DNA from: Phyllobacterium lublinensis
GTDB lineage: Bacteria; Pseudomonadota; Alphaproteobacteria; Rhizobiales; Rhizobiaceae
DNA length: 64,000 nucleotides
NCBI RefSeq assembly: GCF_020164435.1
Contig: NZ_JAIUDQ010000017.1
Location: 1 to 64,000 of the forward strand
Reading direction: 5' to 3'
Made by a program: the position numbers and the translations under genes
Notes under the pieces: model-generated
Database searches by the model: none
What the model saw: the letters and a program-made list of their open reading frames with translations, nothing else
Told to the model about the DNA's origin: nothing
Shown here: in pieces, positions 19,829-35,040 of the stretch
Numbering within the stretch: the stretch's first letter is position 1
Layout of the letters: every line of letters begins with the position of its first letter

Positions 19829-20518
19829 CTACGCAGCACTGGCCGCGCGAAGCCAATAAAGGACATCCTTCCAGTTGGAAAACACTGCTGTGGCGCCCTT
19901 GTCCAGAAGCCTTTGGGCATGGTCCTCGTCGGTGTGAGCGCCGCCGGTAAAGCCGATGGCATTCATACCTGCGGCGATGGCCCCTTGTATGCCGAACGGC
20001 GAATCTTCAATCACGACACATTTGCCAGGATCTGATTCCATTGCCTTTGCAGCGTGCAGGAAAAGATCTGGCGCGGGCTTGCCGCGCTTTACCATCGACG
20101 AGCTGAAGATCGAATTTCCGAAGTAGCCATGGAGCCCTGTCGTATCCAGACTAAAGCAGATACGCTCCAGCGAAGATGACGAAGCCACGCAGCGGGGCGT
20201 GTCAAGCTCTTCGAGGAGCCATTTGATGCCGGGCGTTGGCTGCAGCGATTGACTGAAGAGGCGTTTCGTTTCCGGCCACAACCCCGTTTCCGCGGCCTCG
20301 GATAGTTCGTGGCCGGTAAGTTCGGCAACGCGGTTGACGATGTCCGACTGCTTCAAGCCAACGCATTTCGCTATGGTTCCTTCAGGCAGCGTCATCCCCT
20401 GATCAGCATAGACATTGTGATACGCAAGCGCCGCCAGCGGTTCGCTATCTACCAGCACGCCGTCACAATCAAAAATCAGAAGCTCAAATCGACCTTGTGG
20501 CATTTTCGTGCTCGTCAT
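19829..20518 (-). CDS. HAD-IA family phosphatase / beta-phosphoglucomutase-like
   Basis: A 229-residue haloacid-dehalogenase superfamily hydrolase, subfamily IA. Motif I is FDCDGVLVDSE with D17 (nucleophile) and D19; motif II is CVASSSS; motif III is KRGKPAPDLF; motif IV is VIEDSPFG. The cap domain (about 28-90) is of the helical type. Start 20518 is favoured over 20503. It is transcribed divergently from the DRL/acetoin-dehydrogenase-like operon, sharing its 141-base promoter region, so it may act on a sugar phosphate of that pathway; that link is inference. Confidence 0.88.
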   Translation of the reverse strand: MTSTKMPQGRFELLIFDCDGVLVDSEPLAALAYHNVYADQGMTLPEGTIAKCVGLKQSDIVNRVAELTGHELSEAAETGLWPETKRLFSQSLQPTPGIKWLLEELDTPRCVASSSSLERICFSLDTTGLHGYFGNSIFSSSMVKRGKPAPDLFLHAAKAMESDPGKCVVIEDSPFGIQGAIAAGMNAIGFTGGAHTDEDHAQRLLDKGATAVFSNWKDVLYWLRAASAA

Positions 20519-20576: not shown

Positions 20577-20605
20577 TTGACTAAAATACAAATGTTCAAT
20601 ATTCG
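20577..20605 (+). promoter_or_regulatory. Promoter and putative SorC-type operator of the DRL operon
   Basis: TTGACT at 20577-20582 and TATTCG at 20600-20605 are 17 bases apart, a reasonable sigma-70 pair. Between and over them lies ACAAATGTTC followed by AATATT (20588-20603). The same 16 bases, with one change, occur at 26090-26105 in front of the PTS operon. It is 57 bases upstream of the DRL start codon. Placement within a promoter suits a repressor site; the SorC-type protein encoded at 31741 is the natural candidate. Confidence 0.6.
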
Positions 20606-20659
20606 ATGAATGAAATTGGACGGCTTCGAAAACGCTCAAGAGGCCGCGGAGGAGACGAT

Positions 20660-21979
20660 ATGGCTACGAATGTTGCACTGACGGGGCTGGCGCGTGACAT
20701 GCAGGCGCGGGCGGAGACGGGCCGTCCGATCCGCATCGGGCTGATCGGCTCGGGCGAGATGGGCACGGATATCGTCACGCGGGTGGCGCATATGCCCGGC
20801 ATCGAAATCGGGGCGATCTCGGAGCTGAAGCTGCCGAATGCGGTAAAAGCGGTCGACATCGCCTATCAGGCGCCGGGTCATGCCCGCGAGGTCTCGAATG
20901 CCGGCGCTTTGAGCGCGGCGATGGAGGCCGGCAAGATCGCCGTCACCGACGATGCCAACCTCATCCTCGAAAACGGCCTTATCGATGTGGTCATCGATGC
21001 GACCGGGGTTCCGGCAGTTGGGGCGGAGATCGGCCTGAAAGCGATGGAGCACGGCAAGCACCTGGTCATGATGAACGTGGAAGCGGACGTGACGATCGGC
21101 GCCTATCTGAAGAGCGAGGCCGACCGGCTCGGGGTCACCTATTCGCTCGGGGCCGGCGACGAGCCATCCTCGTGCATGGAACTGATCGAGTTCGTCTCGG
21201 CGATGGGCCATCCGATCGTCGCTGCCGGCAAGGGCAAGAACAATCCGCTCAACATCGATGCCATTCCCGACGACTATGAAGAGGAAGCGGCGCGCCGCCA
21301 CATGAATGTGCGCATGCTGGTCGAGTTCGTCGACGGCTCCAAGACCATGGTGGAGATGGCGGCGATCGCCAATGCCACCGGGCTCGTGCCGGACAAGCCG
21401 GGCATGCATGGCCCGGCGGCCACGCTCGACCAGCTGTCGACAACGCTGATCCCGGAAAAGGATGGCGGGGTGCTCTCAAGGGTGGGCGTCGTCGACTATT
21501 CGATCGGCAAGGGCGTGGCGCCCGGCGTCTTCGTCGTTGCCGACATGTCGCATCCGCGCATCTCCGAGCGCATGGAAGACCTGAAGATGGGCAAGGGTCC
21601 GTACTTCACCTTCCACCGGCCCTACCACCTGACCTCGCTGGAGGTACCGCTGACCTGCGCCCGGGTCGTGCTTTACGGCAAGGCCGACATGGTGCCGCTG
21701 GCAAAGCCCGTGGCCGAGGTCTGTGCGGTGGCCAAGAAGGATCTGAAGCCTGGTGAGCGGCTCGATGCCATCGGCGAATATTGCTACCGCGCCTTCATCA
21801 TGACGGCGGGGCAAGCGCGCGAAGCCGGCGCCATCCCCTGCGGGCTGTTGCAGGGCGGCACGGTTACTGCCGCGATCAAGAAGGGCGAACTCATCACCAG
21901 CGCCAATGCCACCCCCGCCGCCGGCTCCAGGATCGTCGAACTTCGAGCCCGCCAGGACAGGCTGGTCTACGGCGCCTGA
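20660..21979 (+). CDS. DXR-like (DRL) reductoisomerase family, NAD(P)-Rossmann plus SAF domain
   Basis: A 439-residue protein of the family often annotated as 'homoserine dehydrogenase-like with SAF domain' (COG4091). Start MATNVALTGLARDM at 20660 has GGAGGAG upstream. The N-terminal Rossmann fold shows IGLIGSGEMG (28-35); a central catalytic region includes GAGDEPSSCMELIEF and GKGKNNPLN; the SAF domain covers about 350-430. As I recall it, the sequence is close throughout to Brucella abortus DRL, shown to convert 1-deoxy-D-xylulose 5-phosphate to 2-C-methyl-D-erythritol 4-phosphate. Here it heads an operon with a TPP-dependent dehydrogenase, suggesting a catabolic (reverse) role. Codon third positions are much richer in G/C than in the neighbouring genes. 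Confidence 0.85.
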   Translation: MATNVALTGLARDMQARAETGRPIRIGLIGSGEMGTDIVTRVAHMPGIEIGAISELKLPNAVKAVDIAYQAPGHAREVSNAGALSAAMEAGKIAVTDDANLILENGLIDVVIDATGVPAVGAEIGLKAMEHGKHLVMMNVEADVTIGAYLKSEADRLGVTYSLGAGDEPSSCMELIEFVSAMGHPIVAAGKGKNNPLNIDAIPDDYEEEAARRHMNVRMLVEFVDGSKTMVEMAAIANATGLVPDKPGMHGPAATLDQLSTTLIPEKDGGVLSRVGVVDYSIGKGVAPGVFVVADMSHPRISERMEDLKMGKGPYFTFHRPYHLTSLEVPLTCARVVLYGKADMVPLAKPVAEVCAVAKKDLKPGERLDAIGEYCYRAFIMTAGQAREAGAIPCGLLQGGTVTAAIKKGELITSANATPAAGSRIVELRARQDRLVYGA

Positions 21980-22030
21980 AGGGGCACGCATCCATACCAC
22001 GACACGGCAAACCAGACAGGGAGAGCCAGC

Positions 22031-23065
22031 ATGGCTTCCGCAAGTACTTCAAATGCCAAGTTAAAGGATGGCAGCAATTTGCCTTTCGCCTTCCGGCATT
22101 ACCCGCCGGAACAGCTGAAGGATGCATTGCGCAAGATGTACCTCATCCGCAGGTTTGAAGAGGGAGCGGAAGAATCCTACACGCGCGGGCTCATTCACGG
22201 CACGATGCATCTTTCGATTGGCCAGGAAGCGAGCGCCGTCGGCATTTCCCTGCCATTGGCCGAAAACGACATGATCACCTCAACCCATCGTGGTCACGGC
22301 CATTGTATTGCCAAGGGTGCTGAAGTTTCGAAGATGTTTGCAGAGTTCTTCGGCAAGGAGACGGGCTATTGCAAGGGGCGCGGTGGTTCGATGCATATCG
22401 CCGATGTCTCCAAGGGCAACCTTGGGGCCAATGGTATTGTCGGTGGCGGCATACCCATCGCCGTCGGTGCGGCGCTTTCGGCCAAGAAGCAGAAAAATGG
22501 CAAGGTAGTCGTGTCCTATTTCGGCGACGGGGCCAATAATGAAGGTGCCTTCCATGAGGCCCTCAACATGGCGTCCGTCTGGAAACTTCCGGTGATTTTT
22601 GTTTGCGAGAACAATGGCTACGGCATGTCTACTTCAACCAAACGATCAACCGCCGTGGCGAATATCGCCGAGCGGGCGGGGGCGTACAACATGCCGGGCG
22701 TCATCGTGGACGGGAACAATCTGTCGGACGTTGCCGAAGCCTCGCACGAGGCCGTTGAGCGCGCACGCCGAGGTGAAGGTCCGACGCTGATCGAGTGCAA
22801 GACTTACCGGCATCGCGGCCATTCCAAGAGCGATCGCAATCGCTACCGGACCAAGGAGGAGATCGAGGATTGGATCGCCAATCGTGATCCTATCCTCCTG
22901 TTCGAAGACCAGCTGAAGGAGCTAGGCTTCGTCAGCGATGCTGACATCGATGCCATTCGCACAGATGCGGAAAACGAGATTGCCGCGGCTATTGAATTCG
23001 CCAAGAACAGCCCATCGCCTGACCTGAGCAATTTGACGCGTGACGTTTACACGGACCGAACATGA
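22031..23065 (+). CDS. TPP-dependent dehydrogenase E1 alpha subunit (acetoin/pyruvate type)
   Basis: The alpha subunit of a thiamine-diphosphate dehydrogenase E1 (344 residues). The TPP motif runs from GDG (165-167) to NN (194-195), with [19 protein letters not shown] between; the phosphorylation-loop region [19 protein letters not shown] is present. Size and pairing with a lipoyl/alpha-beta-hydrolase E2 point to the acetoin dehydrogenase (AcoA) branch rather than to the main pyruvate dehydrogenase. It follows the DRL gene by 51 bases and overlaps the E1 beta start by four bases (ATGA), so translation is coupled. The substrate may be an acyloin phosphate (inference). Confidence 0.9.
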
Positions 23066-24060
23066 ACGAGATCATCCGCGAACTGAGCTATTCACAGGCT
23101 ATCCAGGAAGCCATGGCGATTGCCATGGAGGCTGACGATCGCGTGTTCCTGATGGGTGAGGACATCGGAGTTTATGGCGGTGCATTCCAGGTGACTGGAG
23201 ATCTGGTGCATCGTTTCGGTGAAGACCGGGTGATGGACACTCCCATTTCCGAACTCGGTGGTGCCGGTGTTGCTGTCGGTGCCGCTCTGACGGGTATGCG
23301 GCCGATCTTCGAGTTCCAGTTCTCCGATTTCGCGGCGCTGGCGATGGAGCAGATCGTCAACCAGGCTGCGAAAATCCGCTACATGCTGGGCGGCGCGGTT
23401 TCGGTGCCGCTGGTCATGCGGTTTCCGGCGGGCTCCGGTACTGGTGCGGCCGCGCAGCACAGCCAAAGCCTTGAAGCCTGGTTCGGCCACGTGCCCGGAT
23501 TGAAGGTCATCCAGCCATCGACGCCCTATGATGCCAAGGGCATGCTGCTTGCCGCCATTGAAGATCCGGATCCCGTGATGATCTTCGAGCATAAGTTGCT
23601 CTATAAGATGAAGGGCCCCGTTCCTGAGGGATACTATAAAGTGCCTATCGGCAAGGCGGCCGTCGTTCGAGAAGGCACTGATCTGACAATCGTGGCCTCC
23701 GCGATCATGGTGCACAAGGCGCTCGAAGCGGCGCAGGAGCTCGCCAAAGAAGGGATCAACATCGAGGTTGTCGACCTGCGGACTGTGCGCCCGATGGACA
23801 AGGAAACGATTATCGCCAGCGTCAAGAAGACGTCGAAGTTGATGTGCGTCTACGAGGGCGTAAAGACGCTGGGCGTGGGTGCGGAGGTCAGCGCCATGAT
23901 CGCCGAAAGCGAGGCCTTTGACTATCTCGACGCACCCATTGTCCGGCTTGGTGGTGCAGAAACGCCAATTCCCTACAATCCTGAGCTCGAGAAGGCCACG
24001 GTCCCGCAAGTGCCGGGCATTCTCAAAAGCGCTCGTGATCTCGTCAAAGGGGTTCGTTAG
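23062..24060 (+). CDS. TPP-dependent dehydrogenase E1 beta subunit (acetoin/pyruvate type)
   Basis: The 332-residue beta subunit of the E1 component, homologous to AcoB/PdhB. Seen are [16 protein letters not shown] near the N-terminus, [32 protein letters not shown], and the transketolase C-terminal domain from about residue 200 ([15 protein letters not shown]). With the alpha subunit it forms the alpha2beta2 heterotetramer that decarboxylates a 2-oxo acid or cleaves an acyloin and passes the two-carbon unit to lipoamide. It lies three bases before the E2 gene. Confidence 0.9.
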
Positions 24061-24063
24061 GCC

Positions 24064-25368
24064 ATGCCCGTCGAAGTCATCTTGCCAAAGGTCGACATGG
24101 ATATGGAAAGCGGCCAGATCTCGCGCTGGTACGCCAAGGACGGTGACAATGTTTCCAAGGGCCAGTTGCTTTTCGAGATTGAGACCGACAAGGCGGCCAT
24201 GGAAGTGGACGCGCCGGCCTCGGGCATTTTGCGCGATGTTAAGGCCGAGGAGGGGGCTACTGTTCCGGTCGGACAGGCCGTCGCCTGGATCTATGCCGAA
24301 GGTGAGGCCTACGGTAGGGTCGCATCATCAGAGACCAAGCCCGAACAGGCAGTCGCCGTCGACGAAGCGAAACCTGTGCCCGGTCAGGTCGGGGAGACAC
24401 TGGCAACGACAACTCCCAAGAGTGATAATGGTGTCCGCGCGACGCCGCTGGCGCGCCGCATCGCCCGTGAAGCTGGTATTGACCTGGCTTCTCTTCGAGG
24501 CTCCGGCCCTAAGGGGCGTATTCAGAAGAAGGATGTCGAGGCGAATGTCTCCAAGCCATCTACGCTGCCGGTGACCTCGGCGATCCATATTGCAGATGCT
24601 CGGCTGCACTCTGTCTGGTTGCGCGAGGGCAAAGGTTCAGGTCGCATACCGCTCGTACTGATTCATGGTTTTGGCTCGGATCTTAACAGCTGGCGACCGA
24701 TGCTGGGCGCAGGACAGGTCGACAGTCCTGTGCTTGCCATTGACCTGCCGGGGCACGGCGGTTCGACGCGCGACGTTCCGGACGATCTTGACGCAATCGC
24801 TGGTCTGGTTGAACAAACCATAATTGCCAATCATGCCGGCCCAGTCATGCTGGTCGGACACTCTTTCGGTAGTGCGATCGCGGCAATGGTTGCGGCACGC
24901 ACGAATGTCGATGTTCGTGCACTAGCCCTGATCGCGCCTGCCGGGCTTGGTCCGGAAATCAACGGCGCCTTTCTCTCAGGCTTTGTGCGCGCCCGCACCG
25001 AAGCGAGTCTTGTGGCCTGGATGAAACAGCTGGTGCAGGATGACGGCCTGCTGACGAAATCGTTCGTCAAAGCAACCCTTGCGCAATCGCAGGATGTGGC
25101 TCTGCGTGACGCGCAGCAAATCACAGCCGATCGGTTCTTCGCGGATGGCACGCAAACCTTTGATATCCGGCCAAGCTTGGGCACTCTGGCAATTCCAGTG
25201 CGTGTCATTTTCGGTGCTGCCGACCGTGTCATTCCGGCAGCCCACGCAGGGCGCCTGCCTGGCGAGGTTGCGGTGCATGTCTTTGCCAATACAGGTCACA
25301 TGCCACAACTTGAGCAGCGTGAGAAAGTTATCAGGATTCTCGGCGAGATGATCCGGTCGGTAGCCTAG
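24064..25368 (+). CDS. Acetoin dehydrogenase-type E2: lipoyl domain, E3-binding domain, alpha/beta hydrolase
   Basis: A 434-residue E2 component. Residues 1-77 are a lipoyl domain with the lipoylated lysine K43 (ETDKAAMEV); 122-160 is the peripheral-subunit-binding domain (ATPLARRIAREAGIDL, GRIQKKDV); 180-434 is an alpha/beta hydrolase with the oxyanion loop HGFG (201-204), nucleophile S267 in GHSFGS and a late histidine in NTGHMPQ. This architecture, replacing the usual acyltransferase domain, is that of AcoC. No E3 (dihydrolipoamide dehydrogenase) gene is in the cluster, so a shared E3 is needed. Its end overlaps the 3' end of the convergent gene by 38 bases. Confidence 0.88.
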   Translation: MPVEVILPKVDMDMESGQISRWYAKDGDNVSKGQLLFEIETDKAAMEVDAPASGILRDVKAEEGATVPVGQAVAWIYAEGEAYGRVASSETKPEQAVAVDEAKPVPGQVGETLATTTPKSDNGVRATPLARRIAREAGIDLASLRGSGPKGRIQKKDVEANVSKPSTLPVTSAIHIADARLHSVWLREGKGSGRIPLVLIHGFGSDLNSWRPMLGAGQVDSPVLAIDLPGHGGSTRDVPDDLDAIAGLVEQTIIANHAGPVMLVGHSFGSAIAAMVAARTNVDVRALALIAPAGLGPEINGAFLSGFVRARTEASLVAWMKQLVQDDGLLTKSFVKATLAQSQDVALRDAQQITADRFFADGTQTFDIRPSLGTLAIPVRVIFGAADRVIPAAHAGRLPGEVAVHVFANTGHMPQLEQREKVIRILGEMIRSVA

Positions 25369-25987
25369 CGCTTGCCGATTTTGAGGGAATCATTGTCCGC
25401 TGGATGGCGCTACGGGCAGACGCCAGATTGGGCATGATCCAATTGGGCTCGGCGCCAAGAAACTTGTCGAGAAATGCGATCGCGTAACCGGGCATTTCCT
25501 GGACATTCTCGCGGTAGGACCACCACGTTCGAAGGTCATTGGCACAGGCATCAATTTCGGGCGCAGTGCCGAATTCCTGTTCGCAAATCGCGGCGATCGC
25601 GCCGACGCAATAATTGGTATAGAGGAAACCCTCAGGCCAGAAGGCTATGATTTCCTGCATTCTTGAGGATTTGGGATCCCCCGACTTGGGCGCGCTCCGC
25701 AGCGTCGCCGGCGCTTCTGTTATCAATTCCTTGAGCACAAGCCCGGCAGCGAAAATGATGAAATCTTTTCTGTCAAAACGGGCGTAGGATTTTTGCTTTT
25801 CGACCGTCTCGATCCAGTTAAGAAAAGCCCTCGTCAGCTTGGTTTCATCGATAGCGAAATGATAGCCGTAATGATCCGCTATCAGCGCGGCATTCTTGCG
25901 AAAAGCCATGCGAAACCAACGGAGTTGGCGCAATCGATGTCTCAAGTCCGGCATGTGAACCAATTCGTCGCTGAATAGAAAATCCAT
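25331..25987 (-). CDS. Conserved hypothetical protein (218 residues)
   Basis: A cytoplasmic-looking protein without signal peptide or membrane segment. The N-terminal half is basic and helical (HRLRQLRWFRMAFRKNAALIADHYGYHF), the middle contains FIIFAAGLVLKELI and the C-terminal part is rich in Trp, Asn and Cys (FWPEGFLYTNYCVGAIAAICEQEFGT). I do not recognise a named family. It overlaps the E2 gene tail-to-tail by 38 bases and is divergent from the PTS operon, sharing a 170-base promoter region with it; co-regulation is possible. Amino-acid composition and length argue for a real gene. Confidence 0.7.
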   Translation of the reverse strand: MDFLFSDELVHMPDLRHRLRQLRWFRMAFRKNAALIADHYGYHFAIDETKLTRAFLNWIETVEKQKSYARFDRKDFIIFAAGLVLKELITEAPATLRSAPKSGDPKSSRMQEIIAFWPEGFLYTNYCVGAIAAICEQEFGTAPEIDACANDLRTWWSYRENVQEMPGYAIAFLDKFLGAEPNWIMPNLASARSAIQRTMIPSKSASARLPTGSSRRES

Positions 25988-26074
25988 GCCTTCTCACTCT
26001 CGTTTCAGTATATGACTTCATACGCCTTAGCGCATCATAAGCCAAGTTTGCACTGTGTCGAGAAATCATACATA

Positions 26075-26105
26075 TTGACATTGAAGAAAACAAATGTTCT
26101 ATATT
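26075..26105 (+). promoter_or_regulatory. Promoter and putative operator of the glucitol-type PTS operon
   Basis: TTGACA at 26075-26080 is a perfect minus-35; TATATT at 26100-26105 is 19 bases later, slightly long for a sigma-70 promoter. ACAAATGTTC (26090-26099) plus TATATT repeats the motif found at 20588-20603 in front of the DRL operon, 15 of 16 bases identical and almost the same distance (53 bases) from the first start codon. A weaker partial copy (ACAAATG, 31718-31724) lies just before the SorC-type regulator gene. Confidence 0.62.
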
Positions 26106-26157
26106 TTTTCGCTCGATCATGGCATATGTTGGCTTTCGGGCGTTGGGAGGATGAGAC

Positions 26158-26592
26158 ATGGCAATGTGGCAATGGGGATTGCTTGCCCTTGGTTTTTTGT
26201 GGGCGCTGCAATCGCTGGGTGTCTGGTACCAGATGCGCCACTACAGCGACGTCCTGAAGGGTATCACTTCCAAGTATACTGATGGTTTCGTCGGCGCGGG
26301 CAATGTTCGGGGCCGCCTTGGCAAGGGCGTGATCGTTGTGATCGTTGTCACGCCGGATCTTATCATTCAGCGTTTTCTGGTCATGAGTGGCCGGTCAGTC
26401 TTTGCAAAATTCAAGCGGCGCACGGAGCTCGAAGGCATTTCGCTCAACGCGCTGCGTGCGGATCCGGTCATGACCGGTGTGGAGGAGCCAGCATTGGCCA
26501 AGGCGGCCGAGCGGGCGATCGAACTAATAGACAAGGCCAGGGCAGAGCCCAACAAACCAGGTCTATCGGGAATAAAGACAGTCAATGCATAG
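26158..26592 (+). CDS. srlM: Glucitol operon activator-like protein GutM/SrlM
   Basis: A 144-residue GutM-family protein. One N-terminal membrane segment (residues 5-23, WGLLALGFLWALQSLGVWY) is followed by the conserved soluble part with VGAGNVRGRLGKGVIVVIVV. GGGAGG lies eight bases before ATG 26158. In enterobacteria GutM is called an activator of the glucitol operon, though as a membrane-anchored protein its mechanism is uncertain. Here it leads the operon, unlike E. coli where it is near the 3' end. Confidence 0.88.
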   Translation: MAMWQWGLLALGFLWALQSLGVWYQMRHYSDVLKGITSKYTDGFVGAGNVRGRLGKGVIVVIVVTPDLIIQRFLVMSGRSVFAKFKRRTELEGISLNALRADPVMTGVEEPALAKAAERAIELIDKARAEPNKPGLSGIKTVNA

Positions 26593-26634
26593 GGACGGCC
26601 GTTCGTAAGGGGGGGTCGATTTGGAGGAGGGAAC

Positions 26635-27393
26635 ATGTCAATTCTAACAATGCTGGCTCAGCACGCTGACATCGCCGCGCACCATATTTCGGTGGCCGGA
26701 TCGATGGTCTCGGATGCTGCGCTTCATGGAAAGCACGCAATCGATCACGCGGGCAACGATCTGGTCGTTCTCGCCCAGTCAACCGGCGATATAACCGTTG
26801 AAGAATTCAAGGACAGGTTGAAGAACGTCCAGCAGGAAGAACAGCTTGGCTGGCTGACCAGCATGGGCAAATATTTTATCGGCATCTTCCAAAAGGGTGG
26901 TGAGGTCTTTGCCGGTTTCGTTACGGGGATCATTCCAACACTCGTGGTGCTGATGACGGCTTTCTATGCCTTGACGGAACTCGTCGGCGAAGAACGCGTG
27001 CACGGCATCGCCCGCGGCGCAGGGCGGATCGCTCTGACGCGCTATACAGTCCTGCCTGTGCTCGCAGTGTTCTTCCTGACCAATCCGATGGCCTATACCT
27101 TCGGATCGTTCCTCGAGGAAAAGTACAAGCCGGCCTTCTACGATGCGGCCGTTTCCTATGTCCACCCGCCGCTCGGCCTGTTTCCGCACATCAATCCCGG
27201 CGAATATTTCGTCTGGGGCGGTATTCTTGTCGCGCTTCTCGAACTCGAGAAAAAAGGCGTTGTTCCCGCCGGCTATCACATCAACGTCGCCATCTGGTAT
27301 GCGCTCGTTGGTCTGGTCGTCATCCTCCTCAAAGGCATGCTGACCGAGCGCATTACTGCCATCATGGCGCGCCGTCAGGGTGTCGAGCTTTAA
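26635..27393 (+). CDS. srlA: PTS glucitol/sorbitol transporter subunit IIC
   Basis: The first membrane component of the glucitol-family PTS (252 residues). From about residue 77 it aligns with E. coli SrlA: FIGIFQKGGEVFAGFVTGI, a hydrophobic helix, LEEKYKPAFYDAAVSY and the signature GLFPHINPGEYFVW. The first 70 or so residues (AQHADIAAHHISVAG and following, amphipathic, no clear helix) have no counterpart in the 187-residue E. coli protein. Together with the EIIB-linked membrane part of the next gene it forms the sugar-alcohol channel that phosphorylates during uptake. Confidence 0.92.
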   Translation: MSILTMLAQHADIAAHHISVAGSMVSDAALHGKHAIDHAGNDLVVLAQSTGDITVEEFKDRLKNVQQEEQLGWLTSMGKYFIGIFQKGGEVFAGFVTGIIPTLVVLMTAFYALTELVGEERVHGIARGAGRIALTRYTVLPVLAVFFLTNPMAYTFGSFLEEKYKPAFYDAAVSYVHPPLGLFPHINPGEYFVWGGILVALLELEKKGVVPAGYHINVAIWYALVGLVVILLKGMLTERITAIMARRQGVEL

Positions 27394-27415
27394 TTCGGTT
27401 TGGGGAGCAGCAACA

Positions 27416-28432
27416 ATGTCAAAGACCTACAAAGCAGTTAAAATCTCTAGGGGATCGAATGGCTGGGGCGGCCCGCTTGTCGTGCAGCTTACACCACAGC
27501 GCAACAAGGTGGTTTCCGTCACCGGTGGCGGGATACATCCTGTTGCGCGTCGCATCGCCGAACTCACTGGCGGAGAGGCCGTGGATGGTTTCAAGGCACC
27601 TCCGGTCGAAGGTGAAATGGGTGTCGTTGTCGTCGATTGCGGCGGTACGGCCCGTTGCGGCGTCTATCCGCGCAAGCGCATTCCAACCGTCAACCTGACA
27701 CCAGTCGGCCAGGCAGGTCCGCTCGCGCAGTTCATCACCGAGGATATCTATGTCTCGGGTGTGAAGGAATCCAACATCGAACTTGCTGATGGATCGCAGC
27801 CCGCTGCCGTTGCAGGCGCAGCCTCTCCGCCCACGCCGGCCGAACTCGCCGCATCAATGTCCAGCCGTACCTCGGCTGCGTCGGATAGCAGTGAGGGTGG
27901 GCTCATTGGTCTGATCAGTTCGGTCGGCCGTGTCATGGGCCGCGTCGTCGGCATTTTCTTCAATGCCGGCCGCCGCACCATCGATCAGGTCGTCCGCAAC
28001 GTGCTGCCTTTCATGGCGTTCGTGACAATGCTCATCGGCTTCATCCTTTATACCGGGATTGGCGATGTGCTCGCCCAGCCAATGGGTCCTCTTGCGAACA
28101 ACATCGTCGGCTTGCTGATTATTTCTGCGATTTGCGGTCTGCCATTCCTGTCCCCCATATTGGGACCGGGCGCTGTCATTGCACAGGTCATCGGTGTCGC
28201 GATCATTGGTCCGCAAATCGCCAATGGCACGATTTCGCCTGCGATGGCCCTTCCGGCGCTGTTTGCCTATAATACCCAGGTGGGTTGCGACTTCGTTCCG
28301 GTTGGTCTCGCGCTTGGTGAAGCCAAGCCAAAAACCATTGAGATTGGCGTTCCGGCAGTATTGATCAGCCGCCAGATCATGGGACCGGTCTCCGTGCTGA
28401 TTGCCTGGGTCGTTAGCCTGATCGTATTTTGA
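27416..28432 (+). CDS. srlE: PTS glucitol/sorbitol transporter subunit IIB (with IIC2 part)
   Basis: A 338-residue EIIB-glucitol. The N-terminal EIIB domain carries the phosphorylation cysteine region DCGGTARCGVYPRKRIPT (C75 and C81, as in E. coli SrlE), followed by an Ala/Ser-rich linker (about 125-165) and a C-terminal membrane domain with about four segments (from about 185; GPLANNIVGLLIISAICGLPFLSPILGPG). ATG 27416 is preferred to the upstream frame start because GGGGAG precedes it. It lies 22 bases after srlA and 31 before srlB. Confidence 0.92.
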   Translation: MSKTYKAVKISRGSNGWGGPLVVQLTPQRNKVVSVTGGGIHPVARRIAELTGGEAVDGFKAPPVEGEMGVVVVDCGGTARCGVYPRKRIPTVNLTPVGQAGPLAQFITEDIYVSGVKESNIELADGSQPAAVAGAASPPTPAELAASMSSRTSAASDSSEGGLIGLISSVGRVMGRVVGIFFNAGRRTIDQVVRNVLPFMAFVTMLIGFILYTGIGDVLAQPMGPLANNIVGLLIISAICGLPFLSPILGPGAVIAQVIGVAIIGPQIANGTISPAMALPALFAYNTQVGCDFVPVGLALGEAKPKTIEIGVPAVLISRQIMGPVSVLIAWVVSLIVF

Positions 28433-28463
28433 TTGACGCAACAAGAGAAAGAGGTTCGCCACC

Positions 28464-28841
28464 ATGTCAGTGCTGTTGAAAACACGGGTAACAGCCGTCG
28501 GGCCTGAAGTGGCGGACCTCGCAGAAGGAGGCGTGGTCATCCTTTTCGCCGATGGTGCGCCGCCCGAACTTGCGGAAGTTTCGATCCTTCACCAGATCGA
28601 AAACGAACCTTCCGATACACCGCCGCCGTTGGGCTCGGTGATCCAGATCGGTGACGTGTCGGCAAGGATTACCGGTATCGGCGAATATGCGTGGCAGAAA
28701 GTCAAGGAGATCGGACACGTGGTCATCACGTTCAACGGCTCGGAACAGGTTGAACGGCCTGGTGAGATTTGTGCTTCGCAGATCGATGCCGAGGAACTCG
28801 TGTCAGCCCTTAAGGTAGGTACGACGATCACCATCGGGTGA
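28464..28841 (+). CDS. srlB: PTS glucitol/sorbitol transporter subunit IIA
   Basis: A 125-residue EIIA-glucitol. Histidine 43 (VSILHQIENE) sits at the same position as the phosphorylated histidine of E. coli SrlB, and the C-terminal LGHV-type region is seen as EIGHVVITFNGSEQVERPGEI. It accepts phosphate from HPr and passes it to EIIB. The gene is followed at 28880 by the HPr-EI fusion, completing a self-sufficient phosphorelay in one operon. Confidence 0.92.
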   Translation: MSVLLKTRVTAVGPEVADLAEGGVVILFADGAPPELAEVSILHQIENEPSDTPPPLGSVIQIGDVSARITGIGEYAWQKVKEIGHVVITFNGSEQVERPGEICASQIDAEELVSALKVGTTITIG

Positions 28842-28879
28842 TTGTGTGGCCAATACACTGTGAACCAAAGAGAGAACTG

Positions 28880-30862
28880 ATGGAACGCTCGACCATTGTG
28901 CGAGTGCATGACGGATTGCATGCACGGCCAGCCACCCGATTTGTCAAACTCGCCAAGAGTTTCGAATCGAATATCGAGCTTGTGAAGGCGGATAAGTCTG
29001 TCAGCGCGAAGAGTTCGGTCAAGTTGATGCTACTCGGCGTCAAGGAGAATGATGAAATCACGGTTCGTGCAACGGGCGCCGATGCGATTGAGGCTATAGA
29101 AGCACTGATCGGATACCTCGAAAACCCTGGTTCCGGATTACATGCAGATGAAAGCGCGGAAGCGGCAACGTCGGTCGCGATCACCGTTACGGACGCAAGA
29201 GTGAGTACCGCAGGCGTCGATGCTGCCGGAAAGCTGAAGGGAGTAGCGGCGAGCGAAGGTGTAGCGATGGGGCCTGCGTTCGGCTTCTTTCCGGCCGAAA
29301 TCAAACATGAAAACCGGCTCCTCAACGCCGAAGAGGTACCTGCTGAACGCGCGCGACTGAACCGAGCCCTCGCGACCGTGCAACAGCGGATGGACAAATC
29401 CCTTGAAGAAGAGAGCCTGGCAGAAAGCGATCGCGGCATCATTGCAGCGCTTAAGGATATTGCATGCGACGACGAACTGACCGGTGCCATCAACGCACTG
29501 GTCGAAGGTGGTATCGACTCGGTGTCAGCGGTGATCGGAGCGACATCGAGGATTGCCGCCGACTTCGCTTCGATGGATGACCCTTATCTTAATGCACGTG
29601 CCGATGACGTGAACGCCGTCGGCCGTCAGATTTGCCTCGCCCTGCTGGGGCAGGATGATGCCAATCTCGATGCCATTCCGGCCGGTGCCATTCTGATTGC
29701 TGAGGATATTGGGGCCTGGGATCTGGCTCGTGCGCCGCTGAAACGCATTGCCGGTGTCATTTGCGGTCATGGCGGTGCCACCTCACACGTTGCCATCATT
29801 GCCCGCGCGCATGGTATTCCTGCTGTTCTTGGGCTGGGCGGTTCGGTGCGGGAATTGCAGCATGTAAAATATGTTGCGGTTGATGGTCATAGCGGAGATG
29901 TATTTCCCGAGCCGGACGAGGCCACCACCGATCGGTTCCACGAGCAGATTGGCAAGGCGGAAACCGATAGGCAAGCGCTCAAGGTCTACAAGGACGTAGT
30001 TCCCAAGCGTGCTGATGGCATGGTGATTGAAATTGCCGCCAACCTGGGATCTCTGGAAGAAATCGAAGCTGCACAGGACGCTGGTGCCATGGGCGTTGGC
30101 CTGTTTCGCACCGAACTCCTGTTCATGCGGCACATTCACCTTCCTTCGGAAGATCTGCAGGTAGAGACCTATGCCACGCTATCGAAGGCCTTTGCACCCT
30201 ATCCTGTCATTATCCGAACACTTGACATCGGTGGTGACAAGCCGATTTCCGGCATCGATTTTCCCGCCGAAGAAAATCCGTTCCTTGGCTGGCGCGGCAT
30301 CCGCATGTGCCTTGATCGCCCCGATGTTTTCAAGCCGCAGCTTCGTGCGCTGCTGCGCGCGGCGATACATGGCAACATCAAGGTGATGTTGCCGATGGTT
30401 TCTGATCTCGCTGAAGTTCGTGCTGCCCGCTTGCTCATCGCGGAGTGCACGGAGGAACTGGAAAGGGAGGGCACGCCCTATGCCAATTTTGATCTTGGCG
30501 TTATGGTCGAGACGCCAGCAGCGGTCATGATCGCACCATTGCTTGCCCGGGAAGTCGCGTTCTTTTCGATTGGTACCAACGATCTGACCCAATACATCAT
30601 GGCTGCCGACCGCCTCAATCCGGCGGTCGCAAAACTGAACGATGTGACGCACCCGGCTGTCATGGCCGCCATTGAACTGACGGCCAAGGCTGGTGTCGAA
30701 GCCGGCATCATGGTCGGCATGTGCGGTGAAGCCGCAGGGCGCCCAGATCTGATACCGGCATTTGTCAGGATGGGCATCACTGAACTCAGCATGAGTCCCT
30801 CATCAATCCAGCGTGCGAAGAAGTGCGTCGTTGAACTGGAGACTGCGGCTCAGGGCAGGTGA
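28880..30862 (+). CDS. PTS HPr-Enzyme I fusion protein
   Basis: A 660-residue phosphotransferase joining HPr (residues 1-88) to Enzyme I (about 115-655). HPr has the active histidine H14 in GLHARPAT and the SSVKLM region; EI has the phosphorylated H303 in GHGGATSHVAIIARAHGIPAV, the PEP-binding FRTELLFM and the active C in VGMCGEAAGRPD. Start ATG 28880 (MERSTIVRVH) is preferred over an in-frame GTG 28838 inside the srlB end. Unlike EI-Ntr of the nitrogen PTS, there is no N-terminal GAF domain. It supplies phosphate from PEP to SrlB. Its 3' end overlaps the convergent gene by 13 bases. Confidence 0.92.
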   Translation: MERSTIVRVHDGLHARPATRFVKLAKSFESNIELVKADKSVSAKSSVKLMLLGVKENDEITVRATGADAIEAIEALIGYLENPGSGLHADESAEAATSVAITVTDARVSTAGVDAAGKLKGVAASEGVAMGPAFGFFPAEIKHENRLLNAEEVPAERARLNRALATVQQRMDKSLEEESLAESDRGIIAALKDIACDDELTGAINALVEGGIDSVSAVIGATSRIAADFASMDDPYLNARADDVNAVGRQICLALLGQDDANLDAIPAGAILIAEDIGAWDLARAPLKRIAGVICGHGGATSHVAIIARAHGIPAVLGLGGSVRELQHVKYVAVDGHSGDVFPEPDEATTDRFHEQIGKAETDRQALKVYKDVVPKRADGMVIEIAANLGSLEEIEAAQDAGAMGVGLFRTELLFMRHIHLPSEDLQVETYATLSKAFAPYPVIIRTLDIGGDKPISGIDFPAEENPFLGWRGIRMCLDRPDVFKPQLRALLRAAIHGNIKVMLPMVSDLAEVRAARLLIAECTEELEREGTPYANFDLGVMVETPAAVMIAPLLAREVAFFSIGTNDLTQYIMAADRLNPAVAKLNDVTHPAVMAAIELTAKAGVEAGIMVGMCGEAAGRPDLIPAFVRMGITELSMSPSSIQRAKKCVVELETAAQGR

Positions 30863-31590
30863 GGGATGAGAAACGCAAAGAGATCAGACAAAGCCTGGAT
30901 ACGATCGGGTCCTTCGATGGTGGCGTCAAACCTGTCCTGGCGGGCTTGCAGGGCCAACAGGGCGCTTTCGACGAGCTTCTCTTCGCCAGGTTCGTGGTCC
31001 GCATAGGTCGCGAGCCCGATCGCCAGAGCGATCGATGAGAAGCAAAGGGACAAGGTAAGCTTGTCGGGCTGCCCCTCGTGGAGCGCCGGCAAGCCCCACT
31101 GTGAAGAACTGTAATGGGATTGCAATTCGCACGCCAGAATTGCCGAGACCATCGCAATATCGTTCAGCCCGCGATTGTTTATCGCGGCCTGTAACCGTGC
31201 TGCATGGCGACGGAGCATCGCTGCATGGACAGTGGAGAAAGTGGCCTCATGGATCAGCGCGTTATCATCTCCAAGCATACCCAACAAACGTTTGGTCAGA
31301 TAATAAGCATCGCGCCGGAAGGGTGCTGCACCGGCGGGGAAGTAGAAATCAAGACCACGGGCCTCGATCGTTGTGTTATGCGCTGCCGGGTCCTGCGAAA
31401 CCAGCGAGATCGAAATGGTTTCGGCAGTCGTCAAAGCTTTGTCGACCACCCGGGCCGCCTTGCCAAACAGGATCTCCGGCAAATTCTGGGGCGACGGTTC
31501 GACGGCCTGGCGGTTCGACCGGATCAGGTGGCGGACGTCGCGCAACCTGTCTTTCAGGCTGACGACGATCTCGTTCGAAAAGTCCCGGAT
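30850..31590 (-). CDS. Hypothetical protein of the PTS gene cluster (246 residues)
   Basis: A mostly helical, soluble protein with no recognised domain. The frame is open far upstream into the regulator gene, but ATG 31590 (MIRDFSNEIVV) has AAAGG eight bases upstream and is taken as the start. Features: a basic N-terminal region (LKDRLRDVRHLIRSNRQ), a central FYFPAGAAPFRRDAYYLTKRLLG, and a C-terminal ALADLF-like helix. It is divergent from the SorC-type regulator and convergent with the HPr-EI gene, so it belongs to the same locus. I cannot assign a function; an accessory regulator is one possibility. Confidence 0.65.
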   Translation of the reverse strand: MRDFSNEIVVSLKDRLRDVRHLIRSNRQAVEPSPQNLPEILFGKAARVVDKALTTAETISISLVSQDPAAHNTTIEARGLDFYFPAGAAPFRRDAYYLTKRLLGMLGDDNALIHEATFSTVHAAMLRRHAARLQAAINNRGLNDIAMVSAILACELQSHYSSSQWGLPALHEGQPDKLTLSLCFSSIALAIGLATYADHEPGEEKLVESALLALQARQDRFDATIEGPDRIQALSDLFAFLIPHLP

Positions 31591-31740
31591 CATTTTGCTG
31601 ACCTTTGCTCGCAAGTGGATAAGACTTTGTATCTGTTTTTCATGGCTTGCTAAACAACAATCTGGTGGAGTGTACTGCGGATAATGCTTTGCCGTGGCAC
31701 TGCCGGTGCCAATGCAAACAAATGACGATAGGGGGGATGA

Positions 31741-32769
31741 TTGGCTGATCGACGCAAGCGAACGGGTGGTACGACGAACAGCCTCCAAAAAACACCCCTG
31801 GAGGTTGGGCAGCCTGATACGAAAATCAGCCGGATGCGTATGCGGGCCGCCTGGATGTATTATATCGAGCAGATGACCCAGAATGAGATCGCCGAGATAC
31901 TTGGTGTTGGACGCGTGACCATCGTCCGCATGCTGGCGGAGGCGCGGGCCCGCAATGAGGTCAAGATCGGCATTCAGGGCTATCTTTCGGATCTCGTCGC
32001 ACTGGAAAGGCAGGTCGAGCAGCGGTTCGGCCTCGACAAGGTCATCGTCGCGCCGCTGTCCCATCCGGATAATGATCCAATACCGTCGATCGCGGCGGCC
32101 ACTGGCGACTATCTCTCCAGCGTGGTGAGCAATGGAATGCGCGTCGGCGTTGGCTGGGGGCGGACCTTGCTCAACACATTATCATACCTTGAGGCACGGG
32201 CACTTGAGGATTTTACCGTCATTTCTCTATTGGGAGGCATCAGCCAGCCGCGCCGGTTCAATCCAGCGGAATTTGCCTGGCAGTTTGCCCAGTTGTTCCA
32301 GGGCGACGGCTACCTCATTCCTGCGCCCGCCATGGTCGACAGTATCGAGACCAAGACTGCACTCATTGAGCGCTGCGGTCTGAAAAGCGTGTTTGAAATG
32401 GCCGAAGACCTCGATCTCGTCCTTCTCAGTGTCGGCGCAATCGAGACTGCATCAAGTACGCCCTATCATATAGGCTTCCTCAATGCGGGGCATCAAGCCT
32501 CCCTTGCAGAACGCGGCGCGGTCGGAGACCTTCTGTTTCATTTCTATAACAAGCAGGGCCAACTGGTCGACCATCCCATCCACGATCTGGTCATGTCCGT
32601 CGGCATCGACACGGTCCAGCGGGTACCGGCGCGGGTACTGACGTCGGGGGGCAAGGAAAAGATCAGGGCGCTTTATGGTGCGATGGCGCTCGTCCGCCCC
32701 ACCGTTTTCATCACCGATGAGGAAAGCGCGCGGCGCTTGCTTGTTCTGGCCGAACAGGAGGGTGGCTGA
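31741..32769 (+). CDS. SorC-family sugar-binding transcriptional regulator
   Basis: A 342-residue SorC/DeoR-type regulator: an N-terminal helix-turn-helix (about 35-70, MTQNEIAEILGVGRVTIVRMLAEA) and a C-terminal sugar-phosphate-binding domain (about 85-340; VGVGWGRTLLNTLSYL, VISLLGGISQP, LLSVGAIETASSTPY). The start appears to be TTG 31741, with AGGGGGG five bases upstream; an ATG three bases earlier is out of frame. SorC proteins bind phosphorylated sugars made by the pathway they control. Position beside the PTS operon and a partial operator-like motif at 31718 make it the likely regulator of both operons. Confidence 0.88.
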   Translation: MADRRKRTGGTTNSLQKTPLEVGQPDTKISRMRMRAAWMYYIEQMTQNEIAEILGVGRVTIVRMLAEARARNEVKIGIQGYLSDLVALERQVEQRFGLDKVIVAPLSHPDNDPIPSIAAATGDYLSSVVSNGMRVGVGWGRTLLNTLSYLEARALEDFTVISLLGGISQPRRFNPAEFAWQFAQLFQGDGYLIPAPAMVDSIETKTALIERCGLKSVFEMAEDLDLVLLSVGAIETASSTPYHIGFLNAGHQASLAERGAVGDLLFHFYNKQGQLVDHPIHDLVMSVGIDTVQRVPARVLTSGGKEKIRALYGAMALVRPTVFITDEESARRLLVLAEQEGG

Positions 32770-34239: not shown

Positions 34240-35040
34240 ATGACCGCCAAACCTGCTGTCCTTATAACGGGTGCCTCCACGGGCATCGGTGCCGTGTATG
34301 CCGATCGTTTCGCCAAGCGCGGGCACGATCTCGTCCTGGTGGCCCGCGACCGGGCTCGACTGGAAACGCTGGGCGAGCGCCTCCAGCGCGAAACCGGGGT
34401 CAAGGTAGATATTGTCAAAGCGGATCTTACCGACGAGATTGACCTCGCAACGGTGGAGACGAGGGTTCGCGATGATGCGCGCATCGGTATACTGGTCAAC
34501 AATGCCGGGGCCAGCGTAGCAGGCACCTTCGCGGATCAAACCCCGGACGATGTCGCCAAGGTGATCAGCCTCAATACGACGGCACTGACTCGGCTGACCA
34601 GTGCCGTGACGCCACGTTTCATCAGAGCGGGTGAGGGCGCGATCATCAATATCGCTTCGGTTGTGGGACTGGCCCCGGAATTCGGCTCGACCGTTTATGG
34701 AGCGACCAAAGCCTTCGTGCTGTTTCTCAGCCAGGGGCTCCAGCTGGAGCTGGGGCCAAAGGGAATATATGTCCAGGTCGTGCTGCCAGCGGCGACGCGA
34801 ACGGAAATTTGGGAACGTGCTGGCAAGGATGTCAACGCGCTTCCGGCCGTGATGGAGGTCGATGAACTGGTGGACGCAGCATTGGTGGGGTTCGATCGTC
34901 GCGAGACAGTGACCATCCCGCCGCTACCTGATGCCGATCAATGGACGGCTTTCGAGGCGGCTCGCCAACGCATGATTCCAAACTTTGCTCAAGTTCACGC
35001 TGCGGACCGTTACCAGCCGGCAAAAGAGCCTGCGGCATAG
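34240..35040 (+). CDS. Short-chain dehydrogenase/reductase
   Basis: A 266-residue classical SDR. The NAD(P)-binding TGASTGIG motif is at residues 9-16, the NNAGAS motif follows near 87, and the catalytic Ser...YGATK is visible in IASVVGLAPEFGSTVYGATKAF. An arginine two residues after the nucleotide fold (ARDRAR) suggests NADP. Its expression is probably controlled by the divergent TetR. Substrate unknown. Confidence 0.92.
   Translation: MTAKPAVLITGASTGIGAVYADRFAKRGHDLVLVARDRARLETLGERLQRETGVKVDIVKADLTDEIDLATVETRVRDDARIGILVNNAGASVAGTFADQTPDDVAKVISLNTTALTRLTSAVTPRFIRAGEGAIINIASVVGLAPEFGSTVYGATKAFVLFLSQGLQLELGPKGIYVQVVLPAATRTEIWERAGKDVNALPAVMEVDELVDAALVGFDRRETVTIPPLPDADQWTAFEAARQRMIPNFAQVHAADRYQPAKEPAA

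Follow-up and report, generated by a model that had tools for sequence, protein, structure and literature searches.

A conserved gene cluster of Phyllobacterium and other bacteria, probably for the catabolism of a methyl-branched C5 polyol via 1-deoxy-D-xylulose 5-phosphate

We analysed a window of 64,000 nucleotides (the whole stretch presented here) from Phyllobacterium lublinensis, in which a cluster of genes at 20660–32769 combines a type II 1-deoxy-D-xylulose 5-phosphate (DXP) reductoisomerase (DRL), a thiamin diphosphate (ThDP)-dependent dehydrogenase E1 with its E2, a glucitol-type (gut) phosphotransferase system (PTS) with its own HPr-Enzyme I (EI), and a SorC-type regulator. We propose that this cluster probably encodes a catabolic route, running via DXP, for a methyl-branched C5 polyol; the likeliest substrate is 2-C-methyl-D-erythritol (ME). 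The source assembly (4.53 Mb, 88% complete) carries the cluster on its contig 9, and the window E1-beta shares 98% identity with its P. bourgognense counterpart, which places the source near Phyllobacterium.

The cluster genes were matched against Pfam and NCBIfam profile cut-offs. All the genes named above lie on the + strand, each with a Pfam or NCBIfam match. DRL (20660–21979; PF21135, 227.8 bits, cut-off 27) is followed by E1-alpha (22031–23065; PF00676, 313.4 bits), E1-beta (23062–24060; PF02779 and PF02780) and an E2 of the AcoC type having lipoyl, E3-binding and alpha/beta-hydrolase domains (24064–25368; PRK14875, 412 bits, cut-off 307). The uptake genes comprise a GutM-like gene (26158–26592; PF06923, 78 bits, cut-off 25) and the glucitol-type components IIC (26635–27393; NF049923 SrlA, 190.3 bits, cut-off 150), IIB (IIBC; 27416–28432; NF049924 SrlE, 451.6 bits, cut-off 400) and IIA (28464–28841; PF03829, 93.8 bits, cut-off 25; under the NCBIfam cut-offs), so that the Gut-family set of IIC, IIB and IIA is complete in the window. 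An HPr-EI fusion (28880–30862; PF00381, PF05524, PF00391 and PF02896; TIGR01417, 448.8 bits, cut-off 341.7) and a SorC/DeoR-type sugar-binding regulator (31741–32769; PF04198, 183.1 bits) complete the array; the regulator is present at ≥40% identity in 48 of 80 related loci. The modules that an earlier note had named from the letters of this stretch alone, with an acetoin-dehydrogenase-like E1/E2 among them, are thus found together. Its remark that a sorbitol-6-phosphate dehydrogenase is missing was also upheld, as none was present among the ten cluster proteins scanned against Pfam and NCBIfam. The short-chain dehydrogenase/reductase (SDR) at 34240–35040 is under every cut-off among the NCBIfam matches listed (25 of 215), has only 27–32% matches in related loci and is not conserved with the cluster.

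We surveyed the co-occurrence of these modules from the side of each of them. In the PTS-side sample of 199 genomes of the order, gutA was found in 10. E1/E2 adjoins the PTS in 9 of these 10 gutA loci (window included) and DRL in 8, a contig edge cutting the DRL in genome G162. A sample of 398 genomes of the phylum had gutA in 16. All 10 gutA genomes of the window's family have a DRL, which shares the contig with gutA at a distance within 15.5 kb in 8 of them and is on another contig in 2, compared to none of the 6 from another family, f92, in which gutA scores higher. For the E1 side, an alignment of 13 cluster E1-betas, of which the window's is 62–90% identical to the 12 others, was used as the query, and the best 80 of at least 514 relatives were analysed. 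At ≥40% identity, DRL is present at 75 of these 80 loci, E1-alpha at 79 and E2 at 78. Two of the DRL-less loci (L095 and L171) have a contig end within 1.2 kb upstream of E1-beta; for the other three (L099, L100 and L139), a full DRL match is present at another place in the genome, which in L139 is 2.6 kb from gutA. The 80 loci include some from Phyllobacterium, Ochrobactrum-type Brucella, Mesorhizobium, Rhodobacterales, Acetobacteraceae, and one beta- and one gamma-proteobacterial metagenome-assembled genome. DRL itself is more widespread, being present in 103 of the 199 genomes of the order. In 36 distinct DRL loci (window included; not a random sample), E1 adjoins DRL in 13, and on named plasmids E1 is present in 8 of the 10 regions that have a DRL at ≥70% identity.

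A survey of this kind had been put forward in the earlier note as a check on its proposal, and it came out positive: the modules recur together in different families, orders and classes of Pseudomonadota, and one Bacillota plasmid carries all three. We rejected chance co-location because the same E1/E2 stands beside nearly all the gutA loci and DRL at most of the E1-beta loci. The cluster genes almost certainly function together.

Two rearranged forms of the cluster were also seen. In L099 and L100, which are from other Phyllobacterium, the cluster is kept with its DRL displaced elsewhere in the genome. In G104 (L051:8392-9468), a DRL fragment and a split HAD phosphatase lie beside the gut-PTS and the regulator, and E1 was not found in the 20 kb read there; the locus is apparently a decaying copy of the cluster.

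The uptake module is exchangeable. Of the 59 loci for which both flanks extend over 10 kb, 32 have the PTS without a PfkB kinase (30 with DRL and 2 without), 16 have DRL and PfkB, one has both PTS and PfkB, and 10 have neither. The near-exclusive occurrence of gut-PTS and PfkB (Fisher p 6e-7, computed without correction for kinship) is what one would expect if the uptake part of a catabolic module can be exchanged. Nine of the 10 genomes with 'neither' loci hold gutA, which lies 14–17 kb from DRL in the two that could be placed; in both of the ABC-type genomes checked, gutA was not found. DRL-E1-E2 is retained where an ABC importer and a sugar kinase replace the PTS. The five non-PTS clusters, from S. 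meliloti Rm41, Agrobacterium CFBP7129, Shinella WSC3-e, Rhizobium N324 and S. chiapasense, share the regulator and DRL-E1-E2-lpdA. The importer and kinase are visible in four of these five in the stretch read. In Rm41 and Agrobacterium the kinase belongs to the PfkB family, and these two clusters also carry lipA (lipoyl synthase). Separately, on a plasmid of Rhizobium sp. B21/90 (L062:19810-25037), a thiamin operon (thiC to thiD) lies downstream with two hypothetical genes between. DXP is a precursor of thiamin, and E1 requires ThDP.

The E1 proteins of these clusters form a clade of their own. In the E1-beta tree, the 21 proteobacterial cluster rows join with support 99/94 (branches are long and the bootstrap was unsettled), and three acetoin-type rows (L090, L091 and L093) make a separate branch with an E. 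faecalis row (98/97). The E1-alpha tree concurs (99/95 for the 21 cluster rows and 96/89 for the three acetoin-type rows, with a long-branch warning). Genes for butanediol dehydrogenase or acetoin reductase accompany the E1s of L090 and L093, L091 being an unannotated near-copy; neither enzyme appeared in the family matches of the cluster proteins. At position 58 of E1-alpha, Thr is found in 22 of 22 cluster rows, Priestia included, and the window has the other signature residues too. The same position is Phe or Tyr in 7 of 8 non-cluster rows, the exception being a Clostridioides plasmid E1. A smaller residue at this place would leave space for a larger substrate. We rejected acetoin dehydrogenase as the family assignment on the basis of the E1 trees and retained acyloin chemistry. 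E2 is more variable: of seven other cluster E2s, four have a C-terminal CAT domain (PF00198) and three an alpha/beta-hydrolase as in the window, and the two domains alternate in otherwise similar clusters (window 24064–25368; L041:9602-11014).

The window DRL aligns to the Brucella DRL (3UPL/3UPY) over 433 residues with E about 5e-215. The residues discussed for the substrate site of type II DXP reductoisomerases (DXR-II) in the excerpted text of PMC3847144 (Brucella E174, F178, K191, K193, T229, H250, R320 and Y322) are all eight present in the window, with numbering minus one, and all eight are kept in 91 of 91 distinct E1-linked DRLs compared. Interconversion of DXP and 2-C-methyl-D-erythritol 4-phosphate (MEP) is described there as verified for 11 DXR-II members (PMC3847144); the window DRL is proposed to catalyse it as well. 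According to that source, Mesorhizobium loti and Ochrobactrum anthropi each have a second DXR-II paralog that is functional. Among related genomes, those of M. ciceri, B. tritici and B. grignonensis each have two full DRL matches, one of them in the E1 cluster. The same excerpt lists Anaerococcus prevotii and Finegoldia magna as class E genomes, in which DXR-II and no other enzyme of the MEP or mevalonate pathway was found, and the F. magna enzyme as active. Such genomes fit a catabolic role.

In Bacillota, the eight DRL records that could be paired among the matches listed (60 of 111), at 37–43% identity, all have a gut IIB within 12 kb. A plasmid of Priestia aryabhattai XT37 carries HPr-IIA-IIB-IIC-GutM, E1-E2-lpdA, two regulators, an RbtT-family transporter, DRL and a kinase of the FGGY type, which resembles pentulose kinases and scores below all cut-offs. 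In Listeria NCTC7974 the order is regulator-DRL-GutM-IIC-IIB-IIA. A plasmid of Ligilactobacillus salivarius L.S.05 (L066:10007-17578) has DRL, PTS and regulator, and then a fructose-6-phosphate-aldolase-type gene and a transketolase. Since fructose-6-phosphate aldolase can form 1-deoxyxylulose from hydroxyacetone and glycolaldehyde (PMC8791446 and PMC7767278, as excerpted), an aldol route out of DXP, perhaps fermentative, is conceivable in Ligilactobacillus. Apart from these, a Clostridioides difficile plasmid (L088:5995-11915) has a sugar-binding regulator, E1-alpha, E1-beta, E2 and lpdA, with an MFS transporter and glycoside hydrolases as neighbours. Like the DRL-linked clade, this E1 has Thr58 and further signature residues, although no DRL is annotated within the 15 kb read.

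We propose the following pathway. The Gut-type IIC/IIB/IIA, served by their own HPr-EI, would take up ME with phosphorylation to MEP. Testa, Cornish and Poulter are said to have found in 2004 that the sorbitol PTS of Salmonella transports ME, which supports this step; ME as the PTS substrate is likely. DRL would then work opposite to its biosynthetic direction, oxidising and rearranging MEP to DXP; the reaction of DXP reductoisomerase (DXR) is reversible. The ThDP of E1 would attack the ketone of DXP, as acetoin dehydrogenase does with acetoin, keep the two-carbon unit and release glyceraldehyde 3-phosphate (GAP). The acetyl group would pass via lipoate to CoA, with an E3 from elsewhere in the genome, so that the overall yield would be one acetyl-CoA and one GAP together with two reduced nicotinamides. 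A phosphorylated intermediate would be the signal for the SorC-type regulator, and in other genomes an ABC importer and a sugar kinase would stand in for the PTS. Cleavage of DXP as the node of the scheme is probable, somewhat more so than ME as the PTS substrate. It is proposed from the analogy with acetoin and from the observation that E. coli with mutant aceE, encoding the E1 of pyruvate dehydrogenase (PDH), or mutant ribB has about 20-fold more DXP (PMC3424233, in the part available). The pathway that the earlier note had outlined (PTS to MEP, to DXP, to acetyl-CoA and GAP) is supported by the co-occurrence of the modules and, beyond the reasoning of that note, by the exchange of uptake and the separate E1 clade. 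Among the matches listed from the open-access full-text literature, no description of it was found. The enzymes are of known families; the pathway and the DXP-cleaving activity appear to be new.

Several observations weigh against this proposal. The 80 E1-beta loci, being the best of at least 514 relatives and nearly all from Alphaproteobacteria, are not independent of each other. Linkage is also imperfect: in G155, E1/E2 and PTS are together with DRL elsewhere in the genome; the genome of L095 has just partial, low-scoring DRL-domain matches, perhaps due to the cut contig; and L126 has no gutA in its genome and no PfkB in the stretch analysed. On two P. zundukense plasmids (L061:12998-14314 and L073:9998-11317), DRLs that are 93% identical to that of the window follow genes for a sugar ABC transporter, and E1 is missing from the 10 kb around them. 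The DRL-PTS loci of Listeria and Ligilactobacillus have no E1/E2 in the stretches read. In the DRL tree, E1-linked and lone rows are intermixed, with at least seven changes, so there is no clade of DRLs specific to catabolism. E1-alpha scores 1 bit below the PDH E1-alpha cut-off of TIGR03182 (392.9 against 393.85), and E1-beta passes the PDH-beta subfamily NF006667 (402.8 bits, cut-off 321) and misses the equivalog NF008854 (393.3 against 454); the family models thus see PDH-like proteins. Finally, the phosphorylation of ME in Salmonella is worded as the work of an ATP-dependent kinase in the available portion of PMC3994034.

The alternative that survives best, although we consider it unlikely, is that some branched or deoxy sugar in phosphorylated form is degraded by the DXP route and that the natural substrate is not ME. 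Examples would be a 2-C-methyl-threitol isomer, 1-deoxy-D-xylulose (above all for the clusters with ABC importer and kinase) or some other branched polyol, given relaxed specificity of DRL and E1. Two types of uptake module could well feed different substrates to one node, and the second regulator, RbtT-family transporter and FGGY kinase of Priestia would suit free 1-deoxyxylulose, which xylulose kinase phosphorylates according to the excerpt of PMC8791446. However, 1-deoxyxylulose as the sole substrate would leave DRL unneeded in the cluster, and the one reported Gut-PTS substrate that links to DRL is ME.

It could also be argued that DRL is merely an isoprenoid enzyme, with the PTS and E1/E2 as incidental neighbours, or that ME is salvaged into isoprenoids and not broken down. 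DXR (PF02670) was found in 165 of the 199 genomes of the order and was not found in the window's genome (88% complete), where IspG is present. The window DRL therefore probably has isoprenoid synthesis as a second role, to which it would contribute MEP, a point that the earlier note had not foreseen. G085 and G188 are in a similar position, having a single, E1-linked DRL with DXR not found, and the E1 scores near or above the PDH models also speak for this reading. As a general reading we nevertheless find this improbable and have rejected a purely biosynthetic DRL, keeping the second role in the window's genome. That isoprenoids are not the sole reason for keeping the cluster DRL is argued most strongly by G023, G116 and G134 (the last 78% complete), where DXR is present and the only DRL is E1-linked. 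Four further genomes (G069, G105, G136 and G045) have a second, lone DRL besides the E1-linked one, and the linkage at 75 of 80 loci and the exchange of uptake modules also argue against an incidental neighbourhood. Least of all, and very improbable, is an ordinary sorbitol or pentitol PTS operon next to an ordinary acetoin or pyruvate dehydrogenase: IIC and IIB do pass the SrlA and SrlE cut-offs and E2 that of acetoin dehydrogenase, but we rejected it since the sorbitol-6-phosphate dehydrogenase is missing, the gut loci of Priestia megaterium and Enterococcus faecium differ in that they carry an SDR with a transaldolase-type aldolase and lack an annotated DRL, the gutA genomes of family f92 have no DRL while all those of the window's family do, and the cluster E1s stand apart from the acetoin-type E1s.

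Compared with known systems, the proposed ME catabolic cluster shares parts with several. Its DRL is like the DXR-II step of the MEP pathway (Brucella 3UPL/3UPY) in family and substrate-site residues; it differs in being linked to uptake and acyl-CoA-forming genes and in the proposed direction, MEP to DXP. The Aco system (AcoA-AcoB-AcoC) has the same ThDP E1 alpha/beta and lipoyl E2 with alpha/beta-hydrolase, and acyloin cleavage is what we propose here. The cluster E1s, however, are a separate clade with Thr58 for Phe, their substrate would carry a phosphate, and the acetoin reductase or butanediol dehydrogenase of Aco loci has no counterpart in the cluster. The glucitol/sorbitol operon has the gene order srlAEBD-gutM, and GutM, IIC, IIB and IIA are common to both; the cluster has in addition DRL, the HPr-EI fusion, a SorC-type regulator and E1/E2, and has no SrlD. 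As in the E. coli aceE suppressors of dxs loss (PMC3424233, partial text), a PDH-type E1 is tied to DXP, but those are laboratory mutations acting in the synthetic direction, whereas the cluster E1s are a natural clade for which cleavage is proposed.

If the proposed pathway is true, ME would be a food and a new entry into central carbon metabolism, whereas MEP is known as an isoprenoid precursor, and the cluster E1s would represent a new activity, DXP dehydrogenase (CoA-acetylating). ME is found in plants, and methyltetrols arise in the air from isoprene, so plant-associated Phyllobacterium, Mesorhizobium and Rhizobium would encounter them. The pathway may also explain the second, seemingly redundant version of DXR in some bacteria, and it suggests that 'acetoin/pyruvate dehydrogenase' and 'homoserine dehydrogenase' are misleading annotations for genes of these operons. 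In the excerpted text of PMC3847144, DXR-II is treated solely as a biosynthetic enzyme. More tentatively, as a reading that we find plausible without favouring it, type II DXR may have been catabolic at root, converting MEP to DXP in ME catabolism, and been recruited for isoprenoids by lineages losing DXR-I; its coupling to a glucitol-type PTS, both in Alphaproteobacteria and in Bacillota, is part of this reading. A catabolic origin, if true, would explain why DXR-II is patchily spread, why it occurs beside DXR-I and why species without the MEP pathway have it.

The cluster also has three recurrent companion genes, all on the − strand. An HAD-family phosphatase (19829–20518; PF13419) resembles 6-phosphogluconate phosphatase, below the cut-off, and is present at ≥40% identity in 26 of the 80 loci, recurrently near PTS-type clusters. 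The other two, HYP1 (25331–25987) and the helical HYP2 (30850–31593), have no Pfam match in the window. With these three genes, and with DXR not found in this genome, the statement of the earlier note that every gene then has a role was too strong. HYP1, of about 215 residues, occurs in both PTS-type and ABC-type clusters, with 64 matches in the collected loci (a few places counted twice) and the invariant residues W117-P118, G120, W155 and E160-N161 in 37 members. Its predicted structure is a confident fold (pLDDT 90), for which Foldseek gave no match at E 0.001; the list of weak matches is headed by five Fic-domain chains. HYP2 lies near EI and the regulator in PTS-type clusters and has 29 matches in the collected loci.

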